From Propionibacteriales bacterium (GTDB lineage: Bacteria; Actinomycetota; Actinomycetes; Propionibacteriales; Propionibacteriaceae), in NCBI GenBank assembly GCA_021286985.1, contig JAJTBJ010000005.1, forward strand, positions 1 to 38,835: 38,835 nt of DNA, given 5' to 3'. Position 1 is the first letter of the stretch; each line of letters starts with the position of its first letter. The translations under genes and the position numbers were made by a program. Positions 1,703 to 33,619 of the stretch are shown in pieces. The notes under the pieces are model-generated. The model worked only from the letters and a program-made list of their open reading frames with translations, was not told the origin of the DNA and ran no database searches.

Positions 1703-3653
<1,951 letters not shown>

Positions 3654-3678: not shown

Positions 3679-4611
<933 letters not shown>

Positions 4612-4894
4612 TCAGAGGCGACGTGATCCATCGATCCTGCGGCGTAACCAGGCCCCGGCCAGCGGCTGGGACGAGACGCCGTCCTGCGGTGAGGGACGTC
4701 GTGAAGGGTGGCTCGGCTTCGGTGAATCACCGGGGACGCCGTGGCGTTCCCGCTGTGACCAGGGAAGTCTCGCCGTGGCCCACAGGGGGCCACTTTGTCG
4801 GGCGGGTACTGCTGGTGTGGGACCTTCGGGGTGGTGCCACTCTCCCCGAGGCCTTCGCCGGCAGGGCACTCGCCGGACCTGAACTCGACGGTCA

Positions 4895-4960
4895 GTGGGG
4901 GTTCCCCCACGAAAAACGAAACAGAAGCGACAGCCGAGAAACCCTGCGCCGTCGCTTCTG
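4895..4960 (-). terminator. Attenuator-like intrinsic terminator in the anfH leader
   Basis: Read on the minus strand, CAGAAGCGAC (4960-4951) pairs perfectly with GTCGCTTCTG (4931-4922) across a 19-base loop and is followed at once by TTTCGTTTTTCG (4921-4910), the form of a Rho-independent terminator. Immediately after comes a second hairpin, GTGGGGG-tt-CCCCCAC at 4895-4910. It points toward anfH but sits about 400 bases before it, downstream of the GlnR-type boxes. This could be an attenuator or the end of a short leader RNA. No antiterminator partner was identified by eye. Confidence 0.5.
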
Positions 4961-5022
4961 CATCAATGACCTGGTGAAAACCTACCTCACGAAATCCGGC
5001 TGGGAAGCCGCAGGGGAGGACC

Positions 5023-5038
5023 GTTACTCACGTTTAAC
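5023..5038. promoter_or_regulatory. Plausible GlnR box (GTTAC-n6-TTAAC)
   Basis: GTTAC at 5023-5027 and TTAAC at 5034-5038 keep the AC-n9-AC spacing of actinobacterial GlnR sites, with one half-site lacking its first G. It is about 32 bases, three helical turns, from the next box and about 40 bases upstream of the possible minus-strand -10 box TAGGTT, a fitting position for activation of anfH. Confidence 0.45.
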
Positions 5039-5054
5039 GCCGCACCTGCGGACC

Positions 5055-5070
5055 GAAACCCCTTGGTTAC
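5055..5070. promoter_or_regulatory. Plausible GlnR box (GAAAC-n6-GTTAC)
   Basis: GAAAC at 5055-5059 and GTTAC at 5066-5070 are separated by six bases, giving AC-n9-AC. Both half-site types occur in described GlnR sites, although the usual order is GTnAC first. Its regular 32-base offset from the box at 5023 supports it. Confidence 0.42.
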
Positions 5071-5214
5071 ACGCGGTTGCGGCGAACCGGGCGTGTCGGC
5101 GGGCGCTTTTGGCACCCGCGCGCTGCCAGGTCCCCCAGTCGGAGCCGATTTCAGATGGCGGGTTGACAGTTTTGGACACTTGCTGACGGCCCTCTTGCGG
5201 ATCAGGCCGAGCAT

Positions 5215-5230
5215 GTAACAATGGTGTTAC
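5215..5230. promoter_or_regulatory. Perfect GlnR box (GTAAC-n6-GTTAC) upstream of anfO
   Basis: GTAAC at 5215-5219 and GTTAC at 5226-5230 form an exact GTnAC-n6-GTnAC site, the consensus of GlnR, the global nitrogen regulator of actinobacteria. It is also a perfect inverted repeat (GTAACA/TGTTAC). It is 124 bases before the anfO start and could serve either divergent promoter. GlnR itself is not encoded in this window. Confidence 0.65.
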
Positions 5231-5353
5231 GGCATCCTCCGTACAGCCGTTCTGGATCACTCGCCTGTGATGACGCGGGCCCCCTGATCCGGTTCGTGGG
5301 TTGTGTTGCGATGTTGGAAACCCAACACACACCTGTCTCCAGAGGAGCGAGCA

Positions 5354-5728
5354 ATGAAGATCGCCATGCTGCTAGATGCCGCCGGACGTCCCGTCCAGCC
5401 GGAATCCGAAGGCACTGTCTACGTCTACGAGCGCCAGCACAATGAATGGGTCGTCACCCGGACCCGGGTGCACGCCCCCGCCGGCCACGACACAATCGCC
5501 GGGATGCGGGCCTACCTCACCGAGCTGTGCGAGTGGCTCGACGACTGCACCGTGCTGGCCGCCCAGGCCCCCCGCGGCTTCAGCCGAGTCGTCTTCGTCC
5601 AGCGCGGCGTCGACCTGTGGGCCATCGACGGCGAGCCGAAGAACTACCTCGACCAGATCGCTGCCGGCTACGGACGCAAGAAGGGCCTGGTGTTCACCCG
5701 GTCACGCTCTGCGGCGCACGCCCAGTAG
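5354..5728 (+). CDS. anfO: AnfO-like accessory protein of iron-only nitrogenase
   Basis: The 124-residue product resembles AnfO, a small protein encoded with iron-only nitrogenases and needed for full diazotrophic growth on that enzyme; its exact role is unsettled. The match, from memory of the family, is the beginning KIAMLLDAAGR, the GTVYVYER strand, LCEWLDDCTVLAA, and the GVDLWAIDGEPKNYLDQI block. The ATG at 5354 is chosen over an upstream in-frame ATG at 5303 because AGAGGAG lies just before it. In most anf clusters anfO follows anfK; here it is divergent from anfH. A strong terminator follows. Confidence 0.82.
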   Translation: MKIAMLLDAAGRPVQPESEGTVYVYERQHNEWVVTRTRVHAPAGHDTIAGMRAYLTELCEWLDDCTVLAAQAPRGFSRVVFVQRGVDLWAIDGEPKNYLDQIAAGYGRKKGLVFTRSRSAAHAQ

Positions 5729-6691: not shown

Positions 6692-7069
6692 TCACAGCGA
6701 GCCGAGCCACAGCCCCAACCAGGCCGCCGCCACCGCCGCGATCAGCATCCCCAGGGCGTGGGCGGACGCCGCCACGCTCCGTCCAGCCAGAATCAGTCGG
6801 GCCGCCTCGACGCTGGCCGTGCTGAAGGTGGTGAAGCCGCCCAGGACGCCCACGCCCAGCATCATCCGCCACGTCTCATCGCCGGAATGGAACGACCACC
6901 AGCCCGCGACGACGCCGAGCAGCAGCGAGCCGATGACGTTGATCACCACGGTGCCCACCGGTACGCCCCAGCCCGGAGCGACCTTGCGAGCGGCGGCGTT
7001 CACCCGTCCATCCAGCCAGAACCGCAGCAGGGCACCGAGCCCGCCCCCGAGTGCGACCAGGAACATCAC
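6692..7069 (-). CDS. crcB: CrcB/FluC fluoride channel subunit (second copy)
   Basis: CrcB (FluC) proteins form small dual-topology fluoride channels in the membrane that export F-. The 125-residue product has about four membrane helices and family motifs GGGLGALLRFWLDG, TVVINVIGSLLLG and GVLGGFTTFSTASVE. The start is GTG at 7069, whose bases overlap the TGA stop of the upstream crcB by four; an ATG follows at once. Paired crcB genes in one operon are common in Gram-positive bacteria, where the two products form an antiparallel heterodimer. Confidence 0.93.
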   Translation of the reverse strand: MMFLVALGGGLGALLRFWLDGRVNAAARKVAPGWGVPVGTVVINVIGSLLLGVVAGWWSFHSGDETWRMMLGVGVLGGFTTFSTASVEAARLILAGRSVAASAHALGMLIAAVAAAWLGLWLGSL

Positions 7070-24175: not shown

Positions 24176-25756
24176 ATGAAGGTCGCGCTCAGAGTGTGTG
24201 CGGTCGTGCTTGCGATCAGCCTGCTGCCCACCGGTGCGGAGTTCGCGGTCGCTGATGACCAGCTCCCTGTGCCCAGCCCCGCGCCCAGTTCGGTTCTCCC
24301 GGATGCGTCCGACCCGACCCAGCTGACCGATCCGACTGCCACGAGCGACCCGACTGCCACGAGCGAGCCGACCACACAGGACGAGCCGACCCCCACCGAG
24401 TCGGCGACGCCGTCGACGAGTCCTTCACTCACTGCTGCTCCGCTGCAGCCGGCAGGGATGCCGGCCGATGTGGGCACCTACCGGCCCGGCTGCGACACCT
24501 TGCCGGCGCAGGGGATGGGCGACCCGGTGATGGTCGGCGCCGAGCCGGATCTGGTCGGTTGGACGCCGGTCGAGGGCGCGCTGTTCTCCAACCCGAACAA
24601 CATTCCGGGCCAGTGGGTGGTGGTGAACCAGATGATTCGCGGCCTTCAGGCCGCGCGGGCCGGTTCGACCATTCACGTCGCGATGTACTCAACGACCCGG
24701 TTGGAAGCGTCCACCGCGGCAGTGCGGGCCTTCTGTCGCGGGGTCAACATCCGGTGGGTGACCGACGATCACGGAATGACCTATAAGGCCAGCCAGACGC
24801 TGCGCGACGTGCTCAGCCTGGGATACGGCAGTTCGTTCAAGGCCTGCTACCTCAGTTGCAGCTCGAACTACACCTGGAAGACGGCTCGGCTGCGGGTGGT
24901 CACCACCATCAACCCGCTGTACCGCCCCTACATGCACGCCAAGTACTTCACCTTCGACGATCTGGCCGGCGTGCCGTACGTGAGCATGTTGTCGTCGGGG
25001 AACTTCACCACCACCCAGATGAGCGCCGGCTGGAACAACATCTACACCGCCGTCAACGATCAGGCGACCTTCGAGTTCTTGAACAACCGGTTCGACGAGA
25101 TGGTCAAAGACACTTCCGGCAACGACTACGGACGCAGGGCGTCGTCCGCGCCGCCGGCGAAGACGACCTACTTCTTCCCGTGGGGGGTGAAGAACCCCCG
25201 CAGTTCGAAGCAGACGGTGACCTCGAAGACCGACCCGTACGCACCCTTCCTGGACAAGATCAAGTGCACCGGTGCTGCGGCCGGGTACGGCACGTCCAAG
25301 CGGCGCACCCAGGTATTGGTGTCGATGTACCAGTGGACGTCGTCGCGGCTGTACCTGGCCCGGAGGCTGAAGTCGCTGAAGAACAAGGGGTGCGACGTTC
25401 GGGTGTTGATGTCGGCCGGCGAATGGGACCTGGAGGTCATGCCGATCCTGCGGTCGCGCACCGGCGGCGCGCCGATCTCGATCCGCAACGGTGATCGGCA
25501 CCACACCTTCATTCACTCCAAATACATCATCGTGAACGGACGAATGGGCTCCAATCGGCGCTACAAGGCGGTCTGGACCGGCTCGGGCAACTGGACCAAG
25601 TCGAGCCTGCGCTTCAGTAACGAGTCGTCGATCCTGGTCACCGGTGATCAGGTCTACTCCGAATTCAAGGCCAACTGGAACGAGCTGTGGAGTAGCAAGA
25701 ACTCCTCGGCGATCACCAAGCTGAAGCGGAAGAAGACGGTCAAGTTCGATCCGTAG
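24176..25756 (+). CDS. Exported phospholipase-D-like phosphodiesterase (first paralogue)
   Basis: A 526-residue secreted protein of the phospholipase D superfamily, which cleaves phosphodiester bonds through two HxK motifs. A signal peptide (to about residue 27) is followed by a 65-residue Pro/Thr/Ser/Glu/Asp linker with a short repeat (DPTATS twice). The first active-site motif is HAKYFTFD (His254, Lys256, Asp261), the second HSKYIIVNG (His447, Lys449), where the usual Asp is Asn, then WTGSGNWTKSS. Both motifs are intact, so activity is expected. The substrate could be wall teichoic acid, DNA or lipid. It is followed by a close paralogue. Confidence 0.87.
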   Translation: MKVALRVCAVVLAISLLPTGAEFAVADDQLPVPSPAPSSVLPDASDPTQLTDPTATSDPTATSEPTTQDEPTPTESATPSTSPSLTAAPLQPAGMPADVGTYRPGCDTLPAQGMGDPVMVGAEPDLVGWTPVEGALFSNPNNIPGQWVVVNQMIRGLQAARAGSTIHVAMYSTTRLEASTAAVRAFCRGVNIRWVTDDHGMTYKASQTLRDVLSLGYGSSFKACYLSCSSNYTWKTARLRVVTTINPLYRPYMHAKYFTFDDLAGVPYVSMLSSGNFTTTQMSAGWNNIYTAVNDQATFEFLNNRFDEMVKDTSGNDYGRRASSAPPAKTTYFFPWGVKNPRSSKQTVTSKTDPYAPFLDKIKCTGAAAGYGTSKRRTQVLVSMYQWTSSRLYLARRLKSLKNKGCDVRVLMSAGEWDLEVMPILRSRTGGAPISIRNGDRHHTFIHSKYIIVNGRMGSNRRYKAVWTGSGNWTKSSLRFSNESSILVTGDQVYSEFKANWNELWSSKNSSAITKLKRKKTVKFDP

Positions 25757-25802
25757 TCCGGGCCCGTTTTGCCTACCCAGGTGCCAGACCAGGGGTGGCT
25801 GG

Positions 25803-25808
25803 TACAGT
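25803..25808 (+). promoter_or_regulatory. Possible -10 box TACAGT before the second PLD-like gene
   Basis: TACAGT lies 58 bases before the GTG start, followed by a small GCCGCG/CGCGGC hairpin and then the ribosome-binding site GGGAGGCGGA. No convincing -35 box. Confidence 0.3.
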
Positions 25809-25865
25809 CTTAGCCGCGATGCCACGCGGCATGAGCGGTCGATCCTGGAAGAGGCGGGAGGCGGA

Positions 25866-27449
25866 GTGAGACTGGCAACCACGGTGGTGAGCGTCGCGCT
25901 CTCATGTGCCCTGCTCATCACGGGCGCCGAGACTGCCTTCGCTGAGACCCCCTCGCCGGCCCCGGAGCCGACGGTCACCTCGACCGAGCAGGCCAACCCG
26001 AGTCCTACTCCTGAGCCCAGCGCCACCCAGCCAGAGGCCACGCCGACCGCTGATGGTCAGGTGCAGCCCGCGGACGTGCCGTCGATGGCGGTGCCCACCT
26101 ACCGCAACGCCTATTGCGCAGATCTGTCGCAGCTGATGACGCCGGCCATCCAGAAGGCCAACGGGCTGCCGGCGGACTACCTCGGCTCGCCGGTCGCTCT
26201 GGGCCAGGCGCCGGACCTGGTCGGGTACGTCCCGAAAGAGGGCGCGCTGTTCAACAATCCGTTCACCAGTTCGAGCACGGTGGTGATTCGCCAGCTCCTG
26301 AACGGCTTCCGGGCCGCGGCGGCCGGCACGAACGTGAAGATCGCGATGTACTCGATGTCCCGCTGGGACGCGGCCAAGGCGGTCATCCGGGCGCACTGCC
26401 GTGGGGTGAACATCCAGTACCTCACCGATGACCACGCCAACGGCACCAGCGCGATCCAGGCCACCAAGACCGTGCTGACCGCCGACGCCACCGGCTCGAC
26501 GTACAAAGCGTGCTACCTGAGCTGCAGTTCTGACTACACCTGGCGCGGTGCGCGGGTGCGAGTGGTGACCACCGAAAACCCGCTGTATCGGCCGTACATG
26601 CACGCCAAATACATCACCTTCGACTCCTTGGCCGGAGTGCCGTTCGTGTCGATGGTCTCCTCGGGGAACTTCACTTCGACGCAGGTCAGCCGCGGGTGGA
26701 ACAACATCTACACCGCGGTCAAGGATCAGACGACCTACGACTTCCTCAACGGGCGCCTGGACGAGATGTGGGCCGATACCAGCGGCAACGACTACGCGGT
26801 GAAGACCTCGACCGGTTCGCCGGTGAAGACCACCTACTTCTTCCCGTGGGCGGTGGCCAACTCGGCCAGTTCGCTGCAGACCGTCGACCCGGCCACTGAC
26901 CCCTACACCTCCTTCCTGGAGAATGTGAAGTGCACGGGCGCTGCCAAGGGTTACGGCAACTCCCAGCGCAAGACCCAGGTGCTGGTGTCGATGTATCAGT
27001 GGACGTCGTCGCGGCTGTATCTGTCCCGGCGACTGAAGCGGCTGAAGAACGCCGGCTGCGAGGTCAAGGTGATCATGTCGGCCAGTGAGTGGGATCTGGA
27101 GGTCATGCCGATCCTGCGCAAGTACGAAGCCAAGAAGGCCAAGACCACCTACAAGTACGGCAACATCTCGATCCGCAACGGTGACCGCGGCAGCAAGTTC
27201 GTCCACTCGAAGTTCATCATCGTGAACGGCAAGTGGGGCAGTGACACCAAGGCCCACTACGTGTTCACCGGATCCGGAAACTGGACCAAGTCGAGCATTC
27301 GGTTCAACAACGAGGTGAACCTGTTGATCAAGGGTGGACCGGCCTACGGCCAGTTCAAGGCCAACTGGAACAAGATCTGGGGCAGCAGCAGGTACTCCCG
27401 ACCGATCACCAAACTGGAAGCGAAGAAGAAGTCGCGGGGTGACGCCTGA
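25866..27449 (+). CDS. Exported phospholipase-D-like phosphodiesterase (second paralogue)
   Basis: A 527-residue sister of the preceding protein with the same layout: signal peptide (to about residue 27), Pro/Thr/Glu-rich linker to about 70, then two HxK motifs, HAKYITFD (His246) and HSKFIIVNG (His447, again Asn in place of Asp). Shared blocks include YRPYMHAKY, VLVSMYQWTSSRLYL and EWDLEVMPILR, so the pair arose by tandem duplication. It has its own leader but is followed after only three bases by the cytidylyltransferase fusion, tying these exported enzymes to polymer biosynthesis. Confidence 0.87.
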   Translation: MRLATTVVSVALSCALLITGAETAFAETPSPAPEPTVTSTEQANPSPTPEPSATQPEATPTADGQVQPADVPSMAVPTYRNAYCADLSQLMTPAIQKANGLPADYLGSPVALGQAPDLVGYVPKEGALFNNPFTSSSTVVIRQLLNGFRAAAAGTNVKIAMYSMSRWDAAKAVIRAHCRGVNIQYLTDDHANGTSAIQATKTVLTADATGSTYKACYLSCSSDYTWRGARVRVVTTENPLYRPYMHAKYITFDSLAGVPFVSMVSSGNFTSTQVSRGWNNIYTAVKDQTTYDFLNGRLDEMWADTSGNDYAVKTSTGSPVKTTYFFPWAVANSASSLQTVDPATDPYTSFLENVKCTGAAKGYGNSQRKTQVLVSMYQWTSSRLYLSRRLKRLKNAGCEVKVIMSASEWDLEVMPILRKYEAKKAKTTYKYGNISIRNGDRGSKFVHSKFIIVNGKWGSDTKAHYVFTGSGNWTKSSIRFNNEVNLLIKGGPAYGQFKANWNKIWGSSRYSRPITKLEAKKKSRGDA

Positions 27450-28802: not shown

Positions 28803-28865
28803 TAACGCAGTGAATTGACGCTGTGGCCAGCGGGGGGCCGGCCACTCAACGAAGAAAGGCCCCCC

Positions 28866-30497
28866 ATGCCCACGACCCATGGGCGAGTACTTCGCCGCAT
28901 GATCCTGGTCTGCAGCCTCGGCGCTGCGTTGTCCGTGAGTCTGTTGAGCCCTCCCGCTTCCGCCCAGACGGCAGCACCTGCGCGCACCCTGACACCGCTG
29001 AATCTGACGAGCGCCGCGGCCACCCCGATGCTGGCCAGTGCGTCGTCCAGCCAGTTGGCAATCGACTGGGCGGACTATGCCGGAGCCCCGCGCTACCGGG
29101 TGCGCTACTCGAAGTACTCCAGCATGAAGAAGTCGGTCTACAAGCGCACCTACGCCTCCGAGATCGTGCTCAGCAAGCTGAAGTCTTCAACGAAGTACTA
29201 CGTGCGCGTGCAGGCCATCCGCGACGATTCCAAGGGCACTGCGTTGTCTGGCTACTCGGCCAAGGCCGCGTTCAAGACCGTGAAGAAGTTGAAGTACACC
29301 GCGCCGAGCAAGTTCGTGGCCAAGGCCTCGGCGCGTGGTGCCGACGCCATCGTCGCGAACTGGGCCTTCGACAAGGCGGGACGGCGTTACGAACTGCAGT
29401 ACGCCAGCACTGCCAGCTTCTCCGACGCGGGCAGCATCGTCACCCGTGGCCCGTCCGGGGTCGTGCAGGGCTTGGCCGCCAACACCACCTATTACCTGCG
29501 CGCCCGCGCGATCAGCTTGTCGGGGACTCCGTTGAGTGCCTGGTCCTCGTTGGCCACTGCGGCCACCAAGACGCCGGCTGACCCGGGAGCCAAGCCGCTG
29601 CAGGTGGCCAGCTTCAATGTGCGCAACGCCACGGTCTCCTCCGATACGGGGAACCGCTCGTGGGCGGTGCGCCGCTACGTGGTGGCGTCCCAGTTGCGGG
29701 ACAACCACATCGACGTGGCCGGGCTTCAAGAGGCCGAGTACACCTATGTGCTGGGTGCTGATGGTGTCATGAAGCACCAGTACCAGGATCTGATCAACCT
29801 GTTGGGCAGCTCCTGGCGGATCACCTGCTCGACGCCGGAAAACCCCAACTGCGATCGTTCCAGCAACTATTCGGTGGGCACGCGCCTGATCTACAACTCC
29901 GATACCGTCACCCTGCGTGATGCTGGGTTCTTTGCGTTGAGCCTTCGCAGCGGCGATGTCCAACGCTTCATGGTGTGGGGCATCTTCACGCAGAAGTCGA
30001 CCGGCCGTGACTTCTTCTTCGCCAACGCACACCTGGACAACTCCAAGTCCACTGCGGGCTTCAATCAGCGGATCACCCAGTCCAACCAGATCGTCAACGA
30101 GATCGCCGCGCGCAACACCCGGGGCCTGCCAGTGATCCTGGTTGGCGACATGAACTCGCAGAAGTGGCGTACCCCTTACAACGCCCCCTACCGCGTCTTC
30201 TCCCAGGCGGGCTATGTCGATCCGATCGGCAACCCGGACAAGTCGAAGGTGGCGGTGAACCCGACCACGGAGTTCCGGTTGCACACCGAGTTCGACACCT
30301 GGCACAGCTCGTCGACCAAGCCGACGGCCCGCCCGTGGATCAACGGCATCAACGTCGACTACATCTGGGTGTCGAAGTCGGTGACGACCTTGGACTACGA
30401 GACTGTGGTAAACGTCAACGACGCGACCATGAAGTACTCCGGCCCGGCGGCCTCGGACCACCACATGCTGCGCGCAGCCGTCCTGATTCCTGGCTAA
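28866..30497 (+). CDS. Exported EEP-family phosphodiesterase/nuclease with two FN3 domains (paralogue 1)
   Basis: A 543-residue secreted protein. A signal peptide (cut near ASA/QTA at about 35) is followed by two fibronectin type III domains (about 55-140 and 147-238) and an endonuclease/exonuclease/phosphatase domain from about 245. Catalytic signatures: ASFNVRN (Asn251), GLQEAEY (Glu289), the YNSD turn, FFFANAHLD, LVGDMNSQ, NVDYIWVS and SDHHML (Asp531-His532). The family cleaves phosphodiesters in DNA, RNA or phosphorylated lipids. ATG at 28866 is chosen; an earlier in-frame start would add residues before the signal peptide. First of three tandem paralogues. Confidence 0.88.
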   Translation: MPTTHGRVLRRMILVCSLGAALSVSLLSPPASAQTAAPARTLTPLNLTSAAATPMLASASSSQLAIDWADYAGAPRYRVRYSKYSSMKKSVYKRTYASEIVLSKLKSSTKYYVRVQAIRDDSKGTALSGYSAKAAFKTVKKLKYTAPSKFVAKASARGADAIVANWAFDKAGRRYELQYASTASFSDAGSIVTRGPSGVVQGLAANTTYYLRARAISLSGTPLSAWSSLATAATKTPADPGAKPLQVASFNVRNATVSSDTGNRSWAVRRYVVASQLRDNHIDVAGLQEAEYTYVLGADGVMKHQYQDLINLLGSSWRITCSTPENPNCDRSSNYSVGTRLIYNSDTVTLRDAGFFALSLRSGDVQRFMVWGIFTQKSTGRDFFFANAHLDNSKSTAGFNQRITQSNQIVNEIAARNTRGLPVILVGDMNSQKWRTPYNAPYRVFSQAGYVDPIGNPDKSKVAVNPTTEFRLHTEFDTWHSSSTKPTARPWINGINVDYIWVSKSVTTLDYETVVNVNDATMKYSGPAASDHHMLRAAVLIPG

Positions 30498-30512
30498 TCG
30501 GACGGGTTGGTG

Positions 30513-30532
30513 GCCCACCACCCCTGGTGGGC
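30513..30532 (+). terminator. Hairpin after EEP paralogue 1
   Basis: GCCCACCA-cccc-TGGTGGGC, a perfect 8-base stem, starts 16 bases after the stop codon and is followed by TTCCTG. Probable terminator with a weak U tract. Confidence 0.5.
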
Positions 30533-30548
30533 TTCCTGAGAAATACCG

Positions 30549-30554
30549 TAGAGT
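30549..30554 (+). promoter_or_regulatory. Possible -10 box TAGAGT for the second EEP gene
   Basis: TAGAGT (overlapping a TACCGT) lies in the only A/T-richer stretch of the gap, 63 bases before ATG 30618 and just after the hairpin that ends the preceding gene. Confidence 0.38.
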
Positions 30555-30617
30555 TTCCCAGGAACTGTTCATGTTCGGCTCGCGGGGGCGGCCGAGTCTG
30601 GTGAGAGGGCTGCGTTG

Positions 30618-32213
30618 ATGCGCGCAAAGAGTTCTATCTCCGTCCGATCGGTGCTGGTTGCGCTGCTGATCGCGCCGGCGCTGGCGCTGGGGGCCTTGCC
30701 GGCCACAGTGGCCGCCGCGCCGGCCCTTCCGGCCGAGGCGACCGTGACCACCATGGCGGCGCCACGCCTCGCTGCGGCCACCCGCACCACCCTGACTCTG
30801 GACTGGCCGGACGTCGCTCAGGCCGCCAGCTATCGGGTGCGGTACTCCAGGTACTCCAGTCTGAAGAGCTCGCGCACGGTGACGGTCACCGCTTCCCGCG
30901 CGGTGCTGACCGGGCTGAAGGCCGTCACCCGGTACTACGTGGTCGTGCAGCCCGTGCCGGCGGCCGGTTCGGCCGTCTCCTCGATGGCTGCCTCGGCGCG
31001 GATGACCTTCAAGACGATGGCCTACGCCGCTCCCAGCGGGCTGCGGGCGCAGGCGTCGGCCCGCTCCGCGGATTCAGTCGCGGTCAACTGGCTGTTCACC
31101 ACCCCCGGACGGCACTACCAGGTGCAGTACGCCACCACCTCGGACTTCGCCGCCGCCGGCATGGTGACCACCTCGGTGGCGTCCACGTCGATCAGCGGGT
31201 TGAGCACCGGGCAGCTGTACTACTTCCGGGTGCGCAGCCTGAGTGCCAAGGGCTCGGTGACCAGTGGATGGTCAGGTGCGGTCGCCGCGATCCCGCAGGT
31301 GCCGGCCGACCCCGGTGCCGTCCCGCTCGGCGTGGGCAGCTTCAACATCCGCAACTGGAATCGCACCAGCGGTGGCAAATGGAGTGATCGTGGGCCACTG
31401 ATCGCTGCGGAAATCGACAGCCGCAATCTCGACGTCGTGGGTCTGCAGGAGGCCGACTTCCACCTGCATGGCGGGGTGACGCAGTACGGCAGCCTGATCA
31501 ACCTGCTGGGCGCCCGCGGCGCCGGCGCTTTCGCCGCCGTCGAGGTCGGAACCACGGCCGGCACCCGGATCATCTACAACACCAACACCGTCACCGTCGT
31601 CCGCGGCGGAATGCGGCAGCTGAGCACCATCGGTGGCGACGTCAAGCGTTACGTCGTCTGGGCCGAATTCGTCCAGAACGCCACCGGACGGCACTTCTTC
31701 TTCGCCACTACCCATCTGGTGCCCGAGACCCATCCGGTGGCCACGAAGAAGTGCTCGTCCAAGCAGAGCAAGCGCTACAAGATGCGCAAGACGCAGGCCG
31801 GCCAGGTGATCGCCGAAATCCAGGCGAACGCCGGCGGGCTGCCGGTCGTCCTCACCGGTGACATGAACTCCCACAAGGTGCAATGCCCCACCAATGCGCC
31901 GTACCGGGCCTATGTGGCGTCCGGACTGGTCGACCCGTTGGGTAACCCTGATCGCTCCAAGTTGCCGAAGAACCCGACCACCGAGGTGCGCATCCACAGC
32001 GAGTGGGACACCTCGAATCACTACTCGCGTAAGCCGATCCGGCACAACATCGTCAACGGGCATCACGTCGACTACGTCTTCGTCTCCCCGACGATCAAGA
32101 CGCTCACCTACGAGGTCGTGGTCAAGATCAACGACGCCACTTTGAAGTACGTCGGTCGGCATCCGTCAGACCACAACCTGGTGCGCGCGGAGATCTTGAT
32201 TCCGGCGTCCTGA
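30618..32213 (+). CDS. Exported EEP-family phosphodiesterase/nuclease with two FN3 domains (paralogue 2)
   Basis: A 531-residue secreted paralogue with a signal peptide (to about 34), two FN3 domains (about 45-135 and 142-230) and an EEP domain. Motifs: GSFNIRN, VVGLQEADFHLHGG, GTRIIYNTN, FFFATTHLV, VLTGDMNSHK, HHVDYVFVS and SDHNLVRAEIL. Relative to paralogue 1 it has an inserted KKCSSKQSKRYKMRKTQ segment after the THLV strand, shared with paralogue 3. ATG at 30618 is preferred to TTG at 30615; GAGAGGG lies upstream. Confidence 0.88.
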   Translation: MRAKSSISVRSVLVALLIAPALALGALPATVAAAPALPAEATVTTMAAPRLAAATRTTLTLDWPDVAQAASYRVRYSRYSSLKSSRTVTVTASRAVLTGLKAVTRYYVVVQPVPAAGSAVSSMAASARMTFKTMAYAAPSGLRAQASARSADSVAVNWLFTTPGRHYQVQYATTSDFAAAGMVTTSVASTSISGLSTGQLYYFRVRSLSAKGSVTSGWSGAVAAIPQVPADPGAVPLGVGSFNIRNWNRTSGGKWSDRGPLIAAEIDSRNLDVVGLQEADFHLHGGVTQYGSLINLLGARGAGAFAAVEVGTTAGTRIIYNTNTVTVVRGGMRQLSTIGGDVKRYVVWAEFVQNATGRHFFFATTHLVPETHPVATKKCSSKQSKRYKMRKTQAGQVIAEIQANAGGLPVVLTGDMNSHKVQCPTNAPYRAYVASGLVDPLGNPDRSKLPKNPTTEVRIHSEWDTSNHYSRKPIRHNIVNGHHVDYVFVSPTIKTLTYEVVVKINDATLKYVGRHPSDHNLVRAEILIPAS

Positions 32214-32234
32214 TCGTGGTCGCCAGGGGTGTGC

Positions 32235-32272
32235 CGGCGACGGCCGCGCTCCTAGACTGAGCGCCGTCGCCG
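32235..32272 (+). promoter_or_regulatory. Hairpin enclosing a -10-like box before EEP paralogue 3
   Basis: CGGCGACGGC at 32235-32244 pairs exactly with GCCGTCGCCG at 32263-32272. TAGACT, a good actinobacterial -10 box, sits in the loop at 32253-32258. The structure may be a terminator for paralogue 2, an operator, or both. Confidence 0.4.
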
Positions 32273-32314
32273 CGGCCCGGGGAGCCGCGCACGACAACGG
32301 GGGAGGGGATCTGA

Positions 32315-33619
32315 GTGCGGCGTGGACTCTGGCGTCGACTGCTTCGGTGGACCCTCCTGATCGCCGTCGTCGTTGCGTTGCCGCTGGTGCCGTCGCCGGC
32401 CCTGGCGCAACCTGCCGGGCCGACCCGGCCCGCCTACCCTTACCGCAGTCCCGATCAGTTGCGGGTGTCCGCCTCCGACGGCGGCGCGGACGTCCTGGTG
32501 GCGTCGTGGCAGTCGCGCGGCCCGGACGTGCGCTACCAGGTGCGCTTCCTCAACGGACGCACCGGTGCGTCCGAGACTCGGATCGTCGACACCCCGGCCA
32601 CCACGATCGGCGGGCTGTGGCCGAACACCCGCTACTACCTGCGCGTGCGGGTGGTGACTGCCTCGGGCAAGGCCGCCAGCGACTGGTCGCCGGTCGTCGA
32701 CGCTCGGACCGCATTGCCTCCCGACCCCGAAGCCGTCCGACTCCGAGCGGCCACGTTCAACATCCACAACCTGAAGACCGCCGGTGGGGTGAAGCCCTGG
32801 TCGGTGCGTCGCAAGATCGTCGCCCGGACGATCAGTGAGCAACGGCTCGATGTGGTCGGGTTGCAGGAGGCCGAGCAGAAGAAGAGCGCCGGTGTGGCCC
32901 AGTACCGGGATCTGCTGCGCCTGCTCGGCAAATCGTGGCGGGCCACCAATGCGGCCAACACCGCCGGCACCCGGATCATCTACAACTCCGAGGTGCTCAC
33001 CTTGGACCGCCAGGGGACGAGCAGGCTGAGCGGTGACGGAAACCCGAAGCGGTTCGTGGTCTGGGCGGTTTTCACTCAGCGCGCCAACGGTCGGTCCTTC
33101 TTCTTCGTCAACACCCACCTGATTCAGGAGCCGGGCGGAGCGGTGAAGTCATCGGGGAAGTGCTCAGGGTCGGCGAACAAGACCTACACGATTCGCAAGC
33201 GCCAAGCGTCCCAGGTGGTCGCGGCGATCCGGGCGCACGCCGGTGGCCTGCCGGTGGTGCTGACCGGCGACATGAACTCCCACAAGTTCGCCTGCCCCAA
33301 CAATGGCCCCTATCAGGTGTATCGCTCGGCGGGCCTGGTCGACCCGATCGGCAACCCCGACCGGTCGCGCTCGCCAGTCAGTGCCAGCACCGAACTTCGG
33401 ATCCACACCCAATACGACACCAGCAATCACTACAAGTCCGCCCCCAAGTCACACGGCTGGGTCAACGGATCCAACGTGGACTACGTGTGGGTGTCGAAGT
33501 CGGTGACCACGCTGGTCTACGAGACCGTAGTCGACCTCAACTCGGCCGGCCGGTTCGACGGTCCGCCGCCGTCGGACCACAACATGATCCGCGTGACCGT
33601 GCTGATCCCTGCGTCCTGA
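32315..33619 (+). CDS. Exported EEP-family phosphodiesterase/nuclease with one FN3 domain (paralogue 3)
   Basis: The shortest of the three tandem EEP proteins, 434 residues. A signal peptide ending at about ALA/QPA (residue 31) is followed by a single FN3 domain (about 45-132) and the EEP domain: ATFNIHN, VVGLQEAEQKK, GTRIIYNSE, FFFVNTHLI, VLTGDMNSHK, NVDYVWVSKS and SDHNMIRVTVL. The insertion with KCSGSANKTYTIRKRQ is shared with paralogue 2. GTG at 32315 has GGGGGAGGGG upstream. All catalytic positions look intact. Confidence 0.88.
   Translation: MRRGLWRRLLRWTLLIAVVVALPLVPSPALAQPAGPTRPAYPYRSPDQLRVSASDGGADVLVASWQSRGPDVRYQVRFLNGRTGASETRIVDTPATTIGGLWPNTRYYLRVRVVTASGKAASDWSPVVDARTALPPDPEAVRLRAATFNIHNLKTAGGVKPWSVRRKIVARTISEQRLDVVGLQEAEQKKSAGVAQYRDLLRLLGKSWRATNAANTAGTRIIYNSEVLTLDRQGTSRLSGDGNPKRFVVWAVFTQRANGRSFFFVNTHLIQEPGGAVKSSGKCSGSANKTYTIRKRQASQVVAAIRAHAGGLPVVLTGDMNSHKFACPNNGPYQVYRSAGLVDPIGNPDRSRSPVSASTELRIHTQYDTSNHYKSAPKSHGWVNGSNVDYVWVSKSVTTLVYETVVDLNSAGRFDGPPPSDHNMIRVTVLIPAS

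Follow-up and report, generated by a model that had tools for sequence, protein, structure and literature searches.

A perfect GlnR-type box, GTAACAATGGTGTTAC (GTAAC-n6-GTTAC), is found at positions 5215-5230 of the window, by which we mean the complete 38,835 nucleotide stretch of Propionibacteriales DNA considered here (contig JAJTBJ010000005.1 of assembly GCA_021286985.1). Probably this is a genuine GlnR box that serves a short anfO gene, with GlnR running glnA, the nif genes, the short anfO and the anfHDGK operon in a sigma-54-free manner, unlike the systems of proteobacteria, and with control by molybdenum probably added.

The anf Locus

The window contains the operon anfHDGK on its minus strand, and profile searches score every subunit above the curated threshold of the Fe-only enzyme or of the iron protein: anfK (247-1671, beta subunit; TIGR02931, 883 bits, cut-off 854), anfG (1703-2125, delta subunit, start codon uncertain; TIGR02929, 147 bits, cut-off 125), anfD (2058-3644, alpha subunit; TIGR01861, 1022 bits, cut-off 874) and anfH (3679-4506, iron protein; TIGR01287, 459 bits, above cut-off), the GTG start of the latter at 4506 having been assigned by comparison with relatives. 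This is a genuine Fe-only nitrogenase. Its host is placed in the Propionibacteriaceae. Nitrogenase-type genes occur in 12 of 198 genomes of this family and AnfD in 3 of them; AnfD is 91% identical in the relative G138 and 86% in G051, and the closest named copy is that of Propionibacteriaceae bacterium UBA5174 (90%). A second cluster, on contig C12, comprises nifH and four further nitrogenase-type genes. In G051 there is also a third gene resembling that of a nitrogenase iron protein (C1:2016460, locus L277), 63% identical to AnfH over its N-terminal part.

Divergent from the operon, on the plus strand, is a short anfO (5354-5728), referred to in what follows as anfO2, whose 124-residue product corresponds to the N-terminal half of AnfO. 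It scores 69 bits with PF09582 (cut-off 30.3) and 47.8 bits with the AnfO equivalog TIGR02940, under the cut-off of 129, and its orthologues in G138 and G051 are 71% and 58% identical. Three open reading frames, 4608-4910, 4623-5186 and 5024-5332, are without Pfam match and have been taken as non-coding. Farther along, 24176-27449 and 28815-33619 hold tandem duplicated genes, first a pair for similar PLD-like proteins and next a trio for secreted proteins that resemble endonucleases/exonucleases and one another and whose N-terminal domains are repeated, identities that were judged from sequence, with the domain scan covering the first PLD protein.

An Exact GlnR-type Box at 5215-5230

The box at 5215-5230 is the sole exact copy of GTAAC-n6-GTTAC in the 2,627,666-base (2.63 Mb) assembly, so that the perfect match claimed in the initial annotation is borne out. 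Given its base composition, the genome as a whole should hold 0.63 exact copies by chance, and the 847-bp intergenic region 4507-5353 should hold 0.0002; the count alone is unremarkable and it is the location that is noteworthy. When this region is shuffled with dinucleotide frequencies preserved GTWAC-n6-GTWAC is produced in 0 of 1000 cases, and the matrix score of the 5215 pair is reached in 10 of 1000. The match is exact with respect to the Streptomyces venezuelae consensus GTnAC-n6-GTnAC (PMC3087709), whereas of the S. coelicolor consensus gTnAc-n6-GaAAc it reproduces the a-site alone, the second half being GTTAC and not GaAAC; GTTAC is also the fourth half-site at glnA in the same genome.

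The pattern GTWAC-n6-GTWAC occurs at three loci in the genome, the nif intergenic region, the anf intergenic region and the region between a permease and a glycosidase gene, and the chance of two of the three falling within the 1352 bp of nif and anf intergenic DNA is ∼2e-6 after correction for local AT content. The looser pattern GTNAC-n6-GWWAC is not enriched genome-wide over a reversed control. The third locus, GTTACTCAGCTGTTAC (L057 1282-1297, contig C136), is flanked by an ethanolamine/amino-acid permease-like gene, judged from sequence, and by a glycosyl hydrolase family 1 gene, and is likely a further GlnR target.

GlnR and Its Other Predicted Targets

The search for glnR suggested in the initial annotation yields an actinobacterial GlnR orthologue on contig C263, with matches to PF21695 (GlnR_1st, 114.8 bits) and to the OmpR DNA-binding domain PF00486 (101 bits). 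The closest solved relative is M. tuberculosis GlnR 8hih (1.7e-69), followed by entries 8hig and 8hml, all three of which we take to be GlnR. There is little to suggest an anf promoter dependent on sigma-54 and AnfA, as no match to PF04552 (sigma-54) is present in the assembly and, in agreement with the initial annotation, no -24/-12 site with two or fewer mismatches is found in 4507-5353. Because the assembly is 89.9% complete, the absence of rpoN from the genome is probable rather than certain. A scan for -10/-35 elements found no promoter and an Rfam scan of the leaders no RNA element.

In order to rank sites we have used a half-site matrix trained solely on the glnA and amtB promoters of relatives, scanning 789 kb or 30% of the genome. 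At glnA the array GTAAC-n6-GAAAC-n6-GCAAC-n6-GTTAC is kept in G138 and G142 with spacers that vary, and comparable arrays with 10-11-bp steps are found in the amtB promoters of relatives; amtB was not found in the assembly, and its promoter can therefore be read only in the relatives. The array GTAAC-n16-GTTAC-n6-GTAAC, ∼190 bp upstream of the nifH start, is kept in the source genome (G000), G138 and G142, again with varying spacers, and with one changed base, leaving one degenerate half-site, in G146 and also in G052, which belongs to a different genus. No clear copy is seen in the nif promoters of G051, G169 and G120. In the four-slot array scan glnA ranks 1, nifH 2-3 and an anf array at 5023-5070 6-7 among the 250 matches listed, while in the pair scan the 5215 box has the same score as the nifH box (ranks 6-9). 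In the matrix ranking that the initial annotation had recommended, the anf region is therefore one of the highest-placed loci of the part scanned. A conserved hairpin-like sequence, ACGGCGAGGACGCC (L055 about 6990-7010), follows the nifH array downstream at a distance of some 30 bp and is present in the nif leaders of relatives as well.

Sites of this type need not be read by GlnR alone. The genome encodes an orthologue of the OmpR-family regulator MtrA (2gwr, 1.8e-94) and, according to PMC13189361 and a paper that it cites, Streptomyces MtrA binds GTnAC repeats whose spacing is almost that of GlnR sites, and acts at GlnR boxes as a repressor of nitrogen genes. The 5215 box could then be mainly an MtrA target, either alone or in competition with GlnR, and its conservation would reflect MtrA control. 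We regard this as unlikely, since the boxes gather at glnA, amtB, nifH and anfO2, the first two of which are classical GlnR targets, and since GlnR itself is encoded. As MtrA recognizes nearly the same repeats, it may nevertheless share the GlnR-type sites, with GlnR remaining the preferred regulator of the 5215 box.

Which Gene Does the Box Serve?

The 5215 box is located 709 bp from anfH and 124 bp upstream of the start codon of the divergent anfO2. In both G138 and G051 anfO2 is distant from anfHDGK, and the operon is followed downstream by a long anfO. The GTAAC half-site is kept in the anfO2 promoters of G051 (GTAACattcttGTTAA then GCATCCCCCGT) and G138 (GTAACccgtgtGTAAC), to be compared with GTAACaatggtGTTAC then GCATCCTCCGTA in the source genome; a GTAAC half-site with a partner at 11 bp is found in all three anfO2 promoters, the pair in G138 being shifted by one repeat (11 bp). 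Because the half-site stays with anfO2 even where this gene is away from anfHDGK, we assign the 5215 box as an anfO2 promoter element. Directly downstream of it on the plus strand is a conserved block, GGCATCCTCCGTA (5231-5243), that is identical in G138 and near-identical in G051, and a second block in the anfO2 leader, TTCGTGGGTTGTGTTGCGATG (5293-5313, plus strand), has one mismatch in G138 and two in G051, and nothing of like quality turned up in the rest of ∼800 kb. Folding of the anfO2 leader gave no consistently stable structure, and the conserved blocks are not in Rfam.

The initial annotation had the box driving anfHDGK as part of a GlnR-controlled alternative nitrogenase. Part of that picture stands, as GlnR is encoded, the enzyme is of the Fe-only type and GlnR-type boxes are present at glnA, at nifH and in the anf region; the role given to the 5215 box is not supported as stated, since comparison ties the box to anfO2. 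The box does lie in an intergenic region common to anfH and anfO2, from which long-range action is conceivable, but an activator site for anfHDGK working over 709 bp is improbable, slightly more so than the MtrA alternative, given the 124 bp to anfO2, a half-site that remains with anfO2 where the two loci are apart, and anfH regions in G138 and G051 that are without a 5215-type box and have a box of their own instead. As judged from these comparisons the 5215 box belongs to the promoter of the short anfO.

The corresponding anfH-side element in the window, overlooked in the initial annotation, is a nif-type box, GTTAAacgtgaGTAAC (5023-5038, minus strand), with one mismatch to the nif box GTTAC-n6-GTAAC; read on the plus strand it is GTTAC-n6-TTAAC. 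One-mismatch boxes are also found in G138 (GTTACggttcaGTAAA, at -383) and G051 (GTTACggatgtGTAAG, at -487), so that each of the three anf genomes carries such a box, with its orientation unchanged, at 383-532 bp upstream of anfH. Shuffled versions of the 600-bp regions upstream of anfH reach a one-mismatch box in 3, 15 and 0 of 1000 cases for the source genome, G138 and G051, respectively. In the G138 assembly a break has left the anfH promoter on a separate contig, C47. A further half-site pair that had escaped attention, GAAAC-n6-GTTAC with one mismatch (5055-5070, plus strand), forms part of the 5023-5070 array, whose score was reached 7 times when the anf intergenic region was shuffled 1000 times. 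By these sequence criteria anfHDGK has its own, weaker GlnR-type box at 5023-5038. Since the anfH-side boxes are ∼380-530 bp from anfH, a long leader would be required. A palindrome near anfH, at 4559-4574, was discarded on account of its poor score.

That the 5215 motif is a chance match is very improbable: it is short, with the expected number of exact copies per genome quoted above, yet it has nitrogen-fixation genes as neighbors, is conserved in two relatives and has a sister box at nifH.

A Candidate Molybdenum Operator

Interleaved with the anfH-side GlnR half-sites, and abutting the 5023-5038 box, is an array of CCGCA-n2-TGCGG palindromes (5008-5082) that is absent from the initial annotation. 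Its core, CCGCACCTGCGG (5040-5051), is found at the anfH genes of relatives and at the mod operon as well, and is accompanied by degenerate copies 32 bp (CCGCAGGGGAGG, 5008-5019) and 31 bp away (ACGCGGTTGCGG, 5071-5082). Tandem palindromes with the same 31-32-bp spacing precede anfH in G138 and G051, and a tandem palindrome is located between nifH and the molybdate-transport operon in the source genome, G138, G142 and G146, and in more degenerate form in G144. Single CCGCA-n2-TGCGG palindromes show no genome-wide enrichment, and the signal therefore resides in the tandem spacing. In a comparison of 20 half-site permutations CCGCA gives 10 tandem pairs, 4 in the genome and 6 in relatives' loci that had been chosen for holding nif or anf, while the 19 permuted palindromes give at most 2 in the genome and 0 in those loci. 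Of the CCGCA pairs, all 6 in the relatives' loci and 3 of the 4 in the source genome are at anf or mod/nif.

The first gene of the mod operon encodes an HTH_17-TOBE protein (PF12728, PF03459) that is a plausible molybdenum sensor, and the tandem array is likely a molybdenum operator, which we infer to be paired with this protein. The mod promoter (L055 7231-7320) has two palindromes 32 bp apart together with a GCAAC-n6-GAAAC box that is kept in G142 and appears as GAAAC-n6-GAAAC in G052, and because a GlnR-type box is conserved there GlnR may act at this promoter too. A tandem pair in G051, 31 bp apart (C1:2250447-2250489; L278 6448-6490), was considered as a marker of a mod operon and rejected, as it lies upstream of a methyltransferase-domain gene; the link between the palindrome and mod genes is therefore not universal.

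Proposed Circuit

In the circuit that we propose, for which GlnR binding, the direction of its effect and the molybdenum step are deduced from the sites described above, nitrogen shortage would render GlnR active. GlnR would then turn on glnA together with three further targets: the Mo-nitrogenase operon, through the array ∼190 bp ahead of nifH; the short anfO, from the box at 5215-5230; and anfHDGK, from the weaker box at 5023-5038. In view of the missing sigma-54, transcription of all GlnR targets would be by housekeeping-type sigma factors. Expression of anfHDGK would be blocked by a repressor that carries molybdenum and sits at 5008-5082, where its sites overlap the GlnR half-sites. It is tempting to extend this scheme to Propionibacteriaceae more generally, with both nitrogenases controlled without NifA, AnfA or sigma-54, GlnR acting at glnA, nifH, anfO2 and anfH, and a non-ModE sensor of the HTH_17-TOBE type using the tandem CCGCA-n2-TGCGG operators with 31-32-bp spacing both directly at anfHDGK, where they overlap the GlnR half-sites, and at the mod operon to which it belongs, such that molybdenum blocks GlnR, although we put forward the generalization tentatively, as a little short of an even proposition.

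Little has been documented about how nitrogen fixation is regulated in actinobacteria, and what is known of the control of alternative nitrogenases comes mainly from sigma-54 organisms. Should the circuit be correct, it would show that nitrogenase clusters can come under a global regulator already resident in the cell, a change that Paenibacillus has undergone independently with an unrelated GlnR, and a sigma-54-free promoter set would be available for engineering.

Comparison with Known Systems

Complete nif sets have been reported in a survey for Frankia, one Propionibacterium and two unclassified actinobacteria (PMC8399215). Our literature search, with most subscription journals outside its reach, returned no report of nif or anf being under GlnR in an actinobacterium, a result that is no proof of novelty. 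Taken singly, both GlnR boxes and anf operons are known. Relative to the GlnR regulons of Streptomyces and Mycobacterium (PMC10704036, PMC3087709), the regulator family, the half-sites with their 11-bp period and the core targets glnA and amtB are alike, while the nitrogenase genes (nif, anf and anfO) as targets are different. In Azotobacter vinelandii AnfO guards maturation of the FeFe protein (PMC9310841); PF09582 is common to that protein and to the product of the window gene, but the latter is a short version, and the relatives have a separate long anfO in addition.

Control of nif by GlnR without NifA has been described in Paenibacillus (PMC6191146). The likeness extends to a Gram-positive nif system under a protein named GlnR. 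The Paenibacillus GlnR is a member of the MerR family with a different box and is unrelated to the actinobacterial OmpR-family GlnR, only the name being common to the two.

Finally, the anf genes of Rhodobacter capsulatus are controlled by NtrC, by AnfA with RpoN (sigma-54) and by MopA/MopB at Mo-boxes (PMC6925177). Both systems would combine nitrogen and molybdenum inputs, with a molybdenum regulator, putative in the present case, that acts on its own mod operon and on anf. Here, however, no sigma-54 was found and GlnR-type boxes would replace NtrC and AnfA, the putative molybdenum regulator is of the HTH_17-TOBE type with CCGCA-n2-TGCGG repeats, and the candidate operator is at anfH itself, whereas in R. 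capsulatus it is at the activator gene. With respect to ModE, which combines a LysR-type HTH with TOBE, the HTH_17-TOBE product of the first gene of the mod operon is another type of protein.
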